A stretch of DNA of 39,642 bases. Source: a virus. The translations under genes were made by a program, and so were the position numbers. Where the stretch lies: IMG/VR virus record IMGVR_UViG_3300008114_000133, positions 1 to 39,642 of that record; one strand, written 5' to 3'. Below the pieces are notes generated by a model that was not told where the DNA came from, did no database searches, and worked only from the letters and a program-made list of their open reading frames with translations. This document shows, piece by piece, positions 2,802 to 39,583 of this stretch; positions within the stretch are counted from its first letter, which is position 1; every line of letters begins with the position of its first letter.

Positions 2802-4661
2802 GTGGCAGAGAATTCAGCAGATATAGCCAAGAGAATTATTCTTGGCTGTGTAGCAGAAGGTATGACCATTGACGCCGCTTGCAGCTCGGCCGGTAAGTCA
2901 ATGAAAACCTATGAGTACTACCGCCGCACCGATAAGATATTTGCAGATAAGATTGATCGTACTAGGCTCGGACTGAAAGAAAAGTCCTTTGCCTCAGGGG
3001 ATGTCCACGATATCGACTTCGTCGAGTTCCGTAAGCGATTCCTGCACAGCCAGACCTTTGCCCATCAGAAGAACCTCATAGATGTCATTGAGGGTCGGGA
3101 ACCTAGCTGGCTCCATCCTAGTATGAAGTATGAGCCGGGGCTAGCGGCAAACCGAGTTCTGATTAACATTCCGCCAAACCACGCAAAGTCCATTACGGTC
3201 ACCGTAGACTACGTAACCTGGAAGGTAGCCCAGAACCCAAACTTCCGAGTTTTGATTGTATCCCAAACGCAGCAGTTAGCTGCCGACTTTCTCTACGCCA
3301 TCAAGCAGCGACTGACGCATCCTATGTATGCAGACTTGCAGAGCGCTTATGCTGCTGGCGTAGGGTTTAATTCCAAAACCGCTTCTTGGCAAGCAACCCG
3401 CGTCACCTTCGGTGATGAACTCCGTGAGTCTTCTGAAAAGGATCCGAACATCGAGGCCGTCGGTATCGGCGGTCAGATTTACGGTAAGCGTGCCGATATG
3501 ATTATTGTCGATGACGCGGTCACCCTCAAGAACGCTAATGAGTTTGAGAAGCAGATACGCTGGTTAACCCAGGACGTCCGGTCCCGTCTTAACCCAACCG
3601 GTAAGTTGATTGTTATTGGTACTAGAGTTGCATCCGTTGACTTGTACCGCGAGCTTCGCTCCGAGGACCGGTACCCAGGTGGGCTAGTCCCTTGGAAGTA
3701 CTTGGCTATGCCAGCCCTTCTTGAGATAGATGAGGACCCCGACAAGTGGGTTACCTTATGGCCTGCCTCAGATGCTCCATTTGACGGACAAGAAGAGACA
3801 GATAAGAACGAAGACGGTCTATATCCTCGTTGGTCTGGTCGTAACCTTTACAATGAACGCCAAGCAATGGATGCGAGTACTTGGGCGCTGGTCTACCAGC
3901 AACAGGATGTATCTGAAAACGCAGCCTTTGACCCAGTATGTGTACGTGGCTCGATTGATGGAATGCGTAAGTCCGGCAGACTTGAGCCAGGACATCCGGG
4001 CCATCCAAAAGATTTAAGTGGTTTTACTATTATCTGTGGTATGGACCCGGCCATTGTCGGTGACACCGCAGCTATCTGTTACGCCGTAGATCGCGGTAGC
4101 AACAAACGCTACATCGTAGATGCTATGAAAGTGACTCGCCCCTCACCTCAGCAGATTCGTGACATTATCCTTAACTGGACTAGCCTCTATTCACCTAGTG
4201 AGTGGATTATTGAGAAGAACGCTTTTCAGGCTTTCTTAACTCAAGACGAAGGCATCAAGCAATTCTTGGCATCTCGTGGCGTTCTACTCAAAGAACACCA
4301 TACCGGTTCTAATAAGTGGGACTCAGGCTTCGGTGTTGCATCTATGGCTACCTTATTCGGTAGCAAGCAACACGATGGTAAGCACCACCGAGATAACTTA
4401 ATACATCTACCTAGTGACCAGACTGAGAATGTCAAGGCTCTTATCGAGCAGTTGATTACTTGGACACCAACTACTAAGGGTAAGACCGATATGGTAATGG
4501 CACTCTGGTTCTGTGAGATTAGAGCACGTGAGATGCTCAACTACGGCCAGTACGCCACACACCACTTGAAGAATCCATTTTTAACTAGCGCTGAAAAGCG
4601 CAAACGAGTAGTCGTCAATATAGACGAGATGCTTGCTAACCAAAACAAACTGTTTGTCTAA
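2802..4661 (+). CDS. terL: Terminase large subunit (packaging ATPase/nuclease)
   Basis: This is the DNA-packaging motor, 619 residues, of usual length or slightly long. An N-terminal helix-turn-helix-like segment (about residues 7-60, GMTIDAACSSAGKSMKTYEYY) resembles the DNA-binding part of small terminases. The ATPase has a P-loop variant PPNHAKS (124-130), a Walker B IIVDD (234-238) and a coupling motif VIGTR (271-275). The RNase H-like nuclease shows GMDPA with Asp near 415, IIEKN with Glu near 471, and an Asp in GKTDMVMAL near the end. The GTG start at 2802 is chosen for the AGGAGAATAC ribosome binding site. No separate small terminase gene is visible nearby. It opens the rightward structural operon. 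Confidence 0.95.
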   Translation: MAENSADIAKRIILGCVAEGMTIDAACSSAGKSMKTYEYYRRTDKIFADKIDRTRLGLKEKSFASGDVHDIDFVEFRKRFLHSQTFAHQKNLIDVIEGREPSWLHPSMKYEPGLAANRVLINIPPNHAKSITVTVDYVTWKVAQNPNFRVLIVSQTQQLAADFLYAIKQRLTHPMYADLQSAYAAGVGFNSKTASWQATRVTFGDELRESSEKDPNIEAVGIGGQIYGKRADMIIVDDAVTLKNANEFEKQIRWLTQDVRSRLNPTGKLIVIGTRVASVDLYRELRSEDRYPGGLVPWKYLAMPALLEIDEDPDKWVTLWPASDAPFDGQEETDKNEDGLYPRWSGRNLYNERQAMDASTWALVYQQQDVSENAAFDPVCVRGSIDGMRKSGRLEPGHPGHPKDLSGFTIICGMDPAIVGDTAAICYAVDRGSNKRYIVDAMKVTRPSPQQIRDIILNWTSLYSPSEWIIEKNAFQAFLTQDEGIKQFLASRGVLLKEHHTGSNKWDSGFGVASMATLFGSKQHDGKHHRDNLIHLPSDQTENVKALIEQLITWTPTTKGKTDMVMALWFCEIRAREMLNYGQYATHHLKNPFLTSAEKRKRVVVNIDEMLANQNKLFV

Positions 4662-38299: not shown

Positions 38300-39019
38300 T
38301 TATTGTAGCAGCCTTTCCTGAATCATTGCACAATACTCACCGCTAATTTCGCTACCAATATACTTGCGCTTCAATCTCTTAGAGACCGCAGCTGTAGTGC
38401 CTGAGCCTGCAAAGGGATCGTAGACTATGTCTCCTTCTACTGACCAAGATAAGATGTGGTCCTGGGCCAGTGCTTCAGGGAAGGGAGCAGGGTGCTTCCA
38501 CCCATTGAAGGAAGTGGTGTACTTCCAGATGTTATTGCGAGGGCTAAAGTCCGGTACTGGGTTCTTTAGTTTGCCGGAAAAATCTTTATGCCCTGCCCAC
38601 TTGTTAGGCTTGTCGCATATCAGCTGCTTATGCACTGTGCCTTTGGCAAACACAAACATATACTCGAATATCTGGGTATACCTGTTGCTATTTTTACTAG
38701 CTGGATAAGCTGGACTATTTTTCTCATAAATCATAGTGTCGTGCAGCTTAAACCCAATCTCCTTAAAGTAAAGAGCTTGTCGGAAGCTAGTGCCTGTCTC
38801 CGATCCGTTAATAGTGGAGTCACCTACAACCCATACAACAATACCGTTGTCCTTGGTTACCCTAAATAGCTCTCTAGCTACCGCTTCAAAGTCAAAAGAG
38901 TATCCATTGTAGGCACGCAAGTTGTCATAAGGGGGCGAGGTAAGCACCATATCGACATACTTGTCAGGCATATCGGCCATAGTAGCTAGACAATCCTCGT
39001 TCCTAATGGAATCAATCAT
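38300..39019 (-). CDS. Site-specific DNA methyltransferase (N4/N6, beta-class)
   Basis: The protein of 239 residues from ATG 39019 has TSPPYDNLRAY (27-37; catalytic motif IV) near the start and DPFAGSGTTAAVSKRLKRKY (201-220; SAM-binding motif I) near the end. This beta-class order is the DNA_methylase (PF01555) pattern. It modifies N4-cytosine or N6-adenine at a specific sequence. A longer start at 39058 runs into the upstream gene and is less likely than the TGATG overlap at 39019. It has no partner restriction enzyme. It is in the leftward early operon. Confidence 0.88.
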   Translation of the reverse strand: MIDSIRNEDCLATMADMPDKYVDMVLTSPPYDNLRAYNGYSFDFEAVARELFRVTKDNGIVVWVVGDSTINGSETGTSFRQALYFKEIGFKLHDTMIYEKNSPAYPASKNSNRYTQIFEYMFVFAKGTVHKQLICDKPNKWAGHKDFSGKLKNPVPDFSPRNNIWKYTTSFNGWKHPAPFPEALAQDHILSWSVEGDIVYDPFAGSGTTAAVSKRLKRKYIGSEISGEYCAMIQERLLQ

Positions 39020-39293
39020 CAGTACCAACCTCTGGCGTGATGCCGCAGAGCGCGGCACGCACTCCCTCGATAGCGGTGTTCAATGTATCGTAGACCGTGA
39101 AGGATTTGAAGTTCAGGGTCTCCACTACGCTCTCTAAGGAGTTGAGCAATTCCATAAGCCGAGCTTCCTCGCTGGTTCTTTGCGAGGTGGTCAAACCTGC
39201 TCTCACGGGTCCATAAGGTGACAAGGCACGCTCTCTCTCTTGGCGAATATCCGAGAGCTTTACTAAATTTGATAGCGGTTTGTCGGTTCTCAC
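39012..39293 (-). CDS. 93-aa hypothetical protein overprinted on the transglycosylase gene
   Basis: The frame starts at GTG 39293, which overlaps the stop of the 97-aa gene (GTGA) behind a GGGGGAGAAGC ribosome binding site. It ends 8 bp inside the methyltransferase gene. The product is charged and helical, with SEEARLMELLNSLESVVETL in the middle. By operon logic this is the expected gene between its neighbours, yet all but 7 bp of it lie inside the transglycosylase gene in another frame. No family is recognised. Confidence 0.5.
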   Translation of the reverse strand: MRTDKPLSNLVKLSDIRQERERALSPYGPVRAGLTTSQRTSEEARLMELLNSLESVVETLNFKSFTVYDTLNTAIEGVRAALCGITPEVGTDD

Positions 39294-39435
39294 GCTTCTC
39301 CCCCATCGTCGCTTTGGTTCTCTCCTTGATTACCGGCTTTACTTGTAGGTGCAGAGCTGGAATTGGATCGTGTATCCACGAGGCTAGCAGCAGTAGTGCC
39401 GTTAATATCAAGCCACTTCTTACCCATTTGTTCAT
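39019..39435 (-). CDS. Membrane-anchored lytic transglycosylase (SLT-like)
   Basis: The protein of 138 residues from ATG 39435 has a basic start and a membrane anchor or signal (VRSGLILTALLLLASWI, 5-21), a variable linker, and a compact SLT/Rpf-like domain. TLWTRESRFDHLAKNQRGSS (73-92) contains the catalytic Glu78, and SSAYGIAQ, LQILHGLRYIEHRYRGSACRA and HHARGWY follow. These landmarks (ExxF, N-x-x-SSAYGIxQ, final GWY) are typical of actinobacterial and phage transglycosylases that cleave peptidoglycan glycan strands. A possible ribosome binding site (GAAGGAG) lies 10 bp upstream, inside the 97-aa gene. The gene overlaps the 97-aa gene by 146 bp and contains nearly all of the 93-aa frame. It may act in entry or lysis, complementing the M15 endolysin. 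Confidence 0.8.
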   Translation of the reverse strand: MNKWVRSGLILTALLLLASWIHDPIPALHLQVKPVIKERTKATMGEKRENRQTAIKFSKALGYSPRERACLVTLWTRESRFDHLAKNQRGSSAYGIAQLLRERSGDPELQILHGLRYIEHRYRGSACRALRHHARGWY

Positions 39436-39583
39436 CAAAGGCTTTCTCCTTCTCTAACAATTCTTTGTAGTGTTCAAAGTGGGCAGTAGCCAACTTGGTG
39501 AGAGCTCGATCTCTCGCTCTTCTGTAGTTCCTGTAACTGACAGCCTGACTTGCGGCAGACTTCATACGCTTTTCGTTCATCAT
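39290..39583 (-). CDS. Hypothetical actinophage protein (97 aa)
   Basis: The 97-residue protein starts at two consecutive ATG codons (39583, 39580) behind a GAGAGGAAG ribosome binding site. Residues 18-60 are basic/helical (RNYRRARDRALTKLATAHFE, KELLEKEKAFDEQMGKKWLD), reminiscent of small helical proteins of other actinophages. The last 37 residues are Ser/Thr/Gly/Asn-rich and disordered; this tail is encoded in the stretch that also encodes the start and membrane anchor of the transglycosylase. Function unknown. Confidence 0.7.
   Translation of the reverse strand: MMNEKRMKSAASQAVSYRNYRRARDRALTKLATAHFEHYKELLEKEKAFDEQMGKKWLDINGTTAASLVDTRSNSSSAPTSKAGNQGENQSDDGGEA

Follow-up and report, generated by a model that had tools for sequence, protein, structure and literature searches.

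Same-strand nesting is known from the lysis genes of tailed phages: the lambda spanin genes Rz and Rz1 are nested envelope-lysis genes whose products work together, that of Rz1 being a lipoprotein. In Phi-X174, gene E is nested in gene D (reviewed in PMC8227390), and in Pseudomonas phage Fc02 the superinfection exclusion genes olg1 and olg2, near the repressor, are overlapping genes (PMC9936078). At the locus analysed here, a 93-codon gene (F93) appears to have arisen in the +1 frame over the entire catalytic domain of an older gene (SLT) that is predicted to encode a membrane-anchored cell wall hydrolase, and a third gene (F97) overlaps the other end of SLT.

The window, by which we mean the whole stretch of DNA that was analysed, is one entire virus record (IMGVR_UViG_3300008114_000133; 39,642 nt) with the genes of a tailed phage, including terminase, major head protein, sigma factor, helicase, primase and several methyltransferases. 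Between 39583 and 39012 three genes overlap on the minus strand and use all three of its frames; the coordinates, lengths and overlaps that the initial annotation had given for them proved exact (Table 1). SLT lies entirely beneath its two neighbours, sharing 146 nt with F97 and 275 nt with F93. The bases of the last F97 codons (Gly-Gly-Glu-Ala-stop) serve three purposes at once, as they also contain the putative F93 binding site and encode Met-Gly-Glu-Lys-Arg of SLT. Downstream, the ATG of the methyltransferase gene shares one base with the SLT stop codon and its start is overlain by the 3′ end of F93. A relative with a 97% identical SLT (L004) has, judged from the translation, a C5-cytosine methyltransferase (3378-4142) in place of the N6/N4 type, and the slot that follows SLT and F93 seems to be swapped between phages. 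Elsewhere in the window, positions 1-2780 hold few long open reading frames and many short minus-strand frames, which are probably small early genes, with an apparently non-coding stretch at approximately 2000-2780.

Table 1. Features of the overlapping locus; positions are those of the window.
Feature	Position	Strand	Description
F97 (97-aa gene)	39583-39290	-	ORF; N-terminal core kept, variable tail above SLT anchor, GGEA-stop end
SLT (138 aa)	ATG 39435 to TGA 39019	-	Predicted membrane-anchored, lysozyme/transglycosylase-like; probably the older gene
F93 (93-aa gene)	GTG 39293 to TGA 39012	-	+1 frame over entire SLT catalytic domain
F93 ribosome binding site GGGGGAG (predicted)	39298..39304	-	Codes Gly-Gly-Glu in F97, Met-Gly-Glu in SLT
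GTGA	39290..39293	-	F97 stop overlapped by F93 start; SLT reads through
SLT ribosome binding site AAGGAG (predicted)	39446..39451	-	Located within F97
N6/N4 DNA methyltransferase	38300..39019	-	Next operon gene; Pfam N6_N4_Mtase 2.4e-45

The motifs that had been claimed for SLT are all present: a hydrophobic N-terminus, Glu78-Ser in RESRFD, SSAYGIAQ and a C-terminal GWY. Across 41 aligned SLT sequences Glu78-Ser79 is invariant, as are G95, I96 and Q98 of the G-x-x-Q motif that follows the catalytic Glu. SLT matches a PHROG transglycosylase family (1.5e-9) and, more weakly, Phage_lysozyme2 (PF18013; 8.7e-5) and SLT (PF01464; 0.011) in Pfam, with 19/41 and 10/41 relatives respectively matching at E 1e-3. 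Since its Pfam scores fall below the curated cut-offs (23.2 vs 28.2 for PF18013, 15.8 vs 21.3 for PF01464), we name it SLT-like and not a member of either family. The AlphaFold model had a pTM of 0.59 and Foldseek returned no significant PDB match. SLT is a predicted membrane-anchored lysozyme/transglycosylase-like enzyme, with its catalytic domain presumably facing the wall, and scanning the proteins of the window, with part of the small ORFs included, revealed no second endolysin. Its named relatives are mostly from Streptomyces phages and the cultured Planktophila phages LanE43AprE7 (E7) and F5; from the latter the host is probably a member of Ca. Nanopelagicales (PMC10202952). One scan of bacterial genomes for a host gave a weak Asticcacaulis match alone (34% identity), which is uninformative.

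An open frame of 93 codons in the window alone is weak evidence for a gene: given the same SLT protein and the codon usage of the window, F93 would be open by chance in approximately 6% of cases for the window and 2-8% for sequences of its clade. Relatives were therefore collected, in a first scan with SLT alone as the query and F93 not used. The +1 frame was open over the whole catalytic domain in 45 loci and the window and had stops in 34 others, and the +2 frame was closed throughout, with many stops. Counted as unique loci, 41/41 were open on the window's side of the SLT tree vs 0/31 on the other, a split that corresponds to a single change (SH-aLRT 100). Two additional SLT-only scans, in which 140/149 loci were open, enlarged a second deep lineage (the L043 group), and all its members were open. 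When an F93 profile was the query, at least 508 relatives matched; in 80 loci taken from these SLT was intact throughout (80/80), and F93 was complete with an RTGA start in all 79 not ended by the contig. In total, F93 was open in 163/163 unique loci of the two deep lineages and interrupted in 34/34 loci of the sister clade. In several members of the L043 group (L269, L271, L272, L289, L291, L293) F93 extends 88-97 nt beyond the SLT stop, vs the usual 4-22 nt, and three divergent loci with an open F93 (L302, L306 and L295; SLT 48-61% identical to that of L043) are useful for rooting the three lineages.

When the evolution of SLT alone was simulated on the real tree (200 runs for each of three settings), only 8-11% of tips were open and in 0/200 runs were all of them open, as compared with 92/92 in reality. 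The simulation drew on a parsimony count of changes, which is an underestimate and so biases it toward openness. Chance openness is excluded across the relatives. The codons concerned can be seen at the Leu/Val/Ile junctions that decide whether a stop arises in the +1 frame, where stop-type codons were used in 0/358 cases in open loci, 99/206 in closed loci and 242/765 in other genes of the window; the zero follows from openness itself, and it is the contrast that is informative, as it shows what needed to be avoided. The +1 frame over the SLT domain is also open in four camviruses (L083, L084, L315, L318) with no similarity to F93 found; this is explainable by their GC content of 66-68%.

The substitution pattern points to selection on the F93 protein. 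With changes counted by site-wise parsimony, SLT codon positions one, two and three had changed 556, 306 and 674 times in open loci and 156, 146 and 494 times in closed loci. SLT third positions, which are F93 second positions, are thus slowed, the ratio of third to first plus second positions being 0.78 in open vs 1.64 in closed loci; the two open lineages taken separately gave 0.80 and 1.19, vs 1.52 in the enlarged closed set. A comparison of substitution rates frame by frame among aligned relatives, which the initial annotation had called for, gave F93 a dN/dS of 0.25 (0.18-0.32) on SLT-silent changes vs 0.73 (0.51-1.02) for the virtual frame in closed loci, and the low value was repeated in each open lineage (0.28 and 0.30). 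Among SLT-altering substitutions the ratio for F93 was 0.87 (CI 0.66-1.12) and that of the control 1.29, with overlapping intervals, and we therefore regard the constraint on F93 as moderate and uneven and F93 as still fairly fast-evolving. At an SLT identity of 0.6-0.7, F93 identity was 0.547 where 0.331 was expected from SLT and an open frame; in the closed control the values were 0.358 and 0.306. Within SAYGIAQLL of SLT, degenerate codons vary in closed loci but are frozen in the two open lineages (GCT 163/163, ATT 162/163, CTT 161/161); in F93 these bases code for the beginning of the helix, around ELLNSLE. SLT is under purifying selection in open loci too (0.13 and 0.46 by two estimators). 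As had been claimed, the three-frame overlap is genuine and involves a predicted catalytic wall hydrolase. The comparisons show that both reading frames remain open and unbroken under constraint and that the layout of the starts is conserved. F93 is very probably a real, selected gene, younger than SLT and overprinted on it.

When F93 arose is less clear-cut. The rooted tree shows a three-way split between the closed clade and the two open lineages, and a grouping of the open loci is neither required nor rejected (p-AU 0.547); the closed loci are one clade on this tree and on the PMSF tree of a subset, and not on the enlarged FastTree tree. A variant of our explanation places F93 in the ancestor shared by all these freshwater phages, with a later loss from the closed clade instead of a gain confined to the open lineages. 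The split would allow this, although a loss is then needed besides the gain and the outgroup phages have no F93 homologues; we consider it a realistic possibility, if not the favoured one. Another explanation for slow third positions would be an RNA structure or regulatory element, and not the F93 protein, as the source of constraint on the overlap. Slowed third positions by themselves would fit, but the signal is specific to one frame, stops being avoided in +1 and abundant in +2, the start and end are conserved, and substitutions that change F93 and are silent in SLT are slower than those silent in F93; we therefore regard such an element as very unlikely. That F93 is a shadow frame, held open by the codon choice or amino-acid composition of SLT, might be argued from the 2-8% chance in any one sequence and from the high-GC Streptomyces phages in which the frame is open with no F93 homologue. 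It is, however, contradicted by the simulated openness of approximately 10% of tips, the dN/dS values, the excess of identity and, in the open lineages only, the frozen codons and slowed third positions, and it accounts poorly for the conserved RTGA start and an end near the SLT stop; we hold it to be extremely improbable. The initial annotation had taken relatives with a broken 93-aa frame beside an intact SLT as the mark of a shadow, and such loci do occur throughout the sister clade (34/34), but never in the window's clade.

The preferred reading, an old SLT overprinted by a young F93, rests on where each gene is found without the other. SLT lacks F93 in the closed sister clade (hereafter the WhiB-SLT clade), in Planktophila phages E7 and F5 and in Streptomyces and Microbacterium phages, and F93 was not found without SLT in the phage collection or among the 80 loci taken from the F93-profile matches. 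In the WhiB-SLT clade SLT has its anchor and the same length and is coupled, by a 4-nt overlap (RTGA) in 32/34 loci, to a gene that reads as a WhiB-like transcription factor (for example in L040, L042 and L065), as is also reported for the cultured Planktophila phages. Further, SLT codons fit the usage of the window better than F93 codons in 162/163 loci. As SLT and its anchor exist without either neighbour, SLT has the better codon fit and F93 was never found without SLT, we take SLT to be old and F93 young, and the anchor itself appears to be old. This largely reverses the direction first proposed, in which SLT had been overprinted on its two neighbours and the disordered F97 tail opposite the anchor was what a young overprinted gene would be expected to show; the tail is indeed variable and looks disordered, but it is probably an extension of F97, opposite an old anchor. 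Within the segment shared by F97 and SLT, the codon usage of the window is matched better by F97 (z -2.7 vs -5.2 for SLT), a comparison that has too few codons to set polarity and a sign opposite to that of the phylogeny, and this opposition makes polarity there less certain. A young SLT laid over older F97 and F93 genes, which the F97 tail and the codons of that segment would favour, can be dismissed on the occurrence of SLT without its neighbours, the rooted tree and overall codon usage, and is exceedingly unlikely.

The N-terminal core of F97 (RNYRRARDRAL..YKELLEKEK) is conserved, and its Ser/Thr/Glu/Gly-rich tail, which overlies the SLT anchor, is variable. Homology with the upstream gene of the closed clade was considered, but profile comparison was negative and the upstream gene has the look of a WhiB-like gene. 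At a mere 71 aa, the F97 of the L043 lineage stops short of F93, and the part opposite the anchor is a C-terminal extension absent from that lineage; there the F93 start, ATGA, is preceded in most loci by an AGGAAGG-type site. In the main clade, the GTGA coupling that had been annotated for F93 holds widely: the start is GTGA or ATGA (RTGA) in 122/122 loci, and an F97 frame of at least 60 codons reaches into its TGA in 118/122. The strong binding site annotated for F93 has counterparts of GGAGG type in many relatives. The sites for SLT are of GGAG type in relatives, with the ATG within F97. We propose that F93 arose in the +1 frame of the catalytic domain of SLT and was retained in two deep lineages, and that in the lineage of the window F97 was then probably lengthened over the SLT anchor until its stop reached the F93 start. 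As the F97 stop meets this start, F93 would most likely be made by ribosomes that complete F97 and restart at GTGA, aided by the binding site in the F97 tail, and SLT would initiate independently from its internal ATG. One region of mRNA may thus yield three proteins in three frames.

F93 is 86-102 aa long in the main clade, with a median pI of 5.0 there and 8.1 in the L043 lineage, and has no hydrophobic or membrane segment (median maximum KD19 0.87 and 0.74). Its AlphaFold model, for which the underlying alignment was shaped by SLT itself, is a single long helix (residues 36-83) and little else, with confidence limited to about residues 40-80. Database searches had been suggested for each product; they placed SLT and gave no convincing homologue of F93 in phages, Pfam, PHROGs, PDB sequences or a viral fold library. 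We predict the F93 product to be soluble and helical. We would tentatively suggest a small, perhaps coiled-coil, cytosolic protein whose role is either to regulate SLT and F97 or to target the host, although this is a guess and less likely than not. Translation of F97 and F93 crosses the start and body of SLT and so could throttle SLT synthesis in cis. It is a more speculative and rather improbable idea that F93 is a de novo regulator of SLT; a hydrolase and its controller would then be written in the same bases along the entire catalytic domain, and the arrangement of three frames with F97 would time the attack on the wall.

Overprinting is a known process and among the few routes to a wholly new protein. 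The present instance is apparently unreported: we found no report of it in the open-access literature on gene overlaps in connection with endolysins, actinophages, transglycosylases or freshwater phages. In the literature found, few cases concern a tailed dsDNA phage for which there are both numerous divergent relatives and a sister group without the gene. Here, throughout a large freshwater phage group, the same stretch of DNA would encode two unrelated proteins, and three with the upstream neighbour. F93 is present on at least 508 contigs. Phages with only the older gene, with the new one and with intermediate layouts (F97 of 71 and 97 aa) all exist, so that the birth of a gene and its translational coupling can be traced stepwise. 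Ordinary gene callers normally reject a gene nested in another, and F93 has probably been missed by them.

Of the described systems, the SLT-like proteins of the camviruses and of Planktophila phages E7 and F5 are homologous to SLT, but are without F93 and coupled to other genes (in the Streptomyces camviruses, to the adjoining downstream thymidylate synthase gene, ThyX). Fc02 olg1/olg2 likewise overlap in alternate frames on the same transcript, without involving a wall hydrolase. Rz/Rz1 resemble the present pair as same-strand nested genes of envelope lysis; however, Rz1 is a lipoprotein whereas F93 has no hydrophobic segment, by which a spanin role was rejected, and SLT is enzyme-like. In Phi-X174, as here, the younger gene lies in a shifted frame wholly inside an older phage gene. 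In that 5.4-kb ssDNA phage, however, it is the nested gene that serves lysis, and its host gene is structural; at the present locus, on the approximately 40-kb genome of a tailed dsDNA phage, the predicted wall hydrolase is the older gene.
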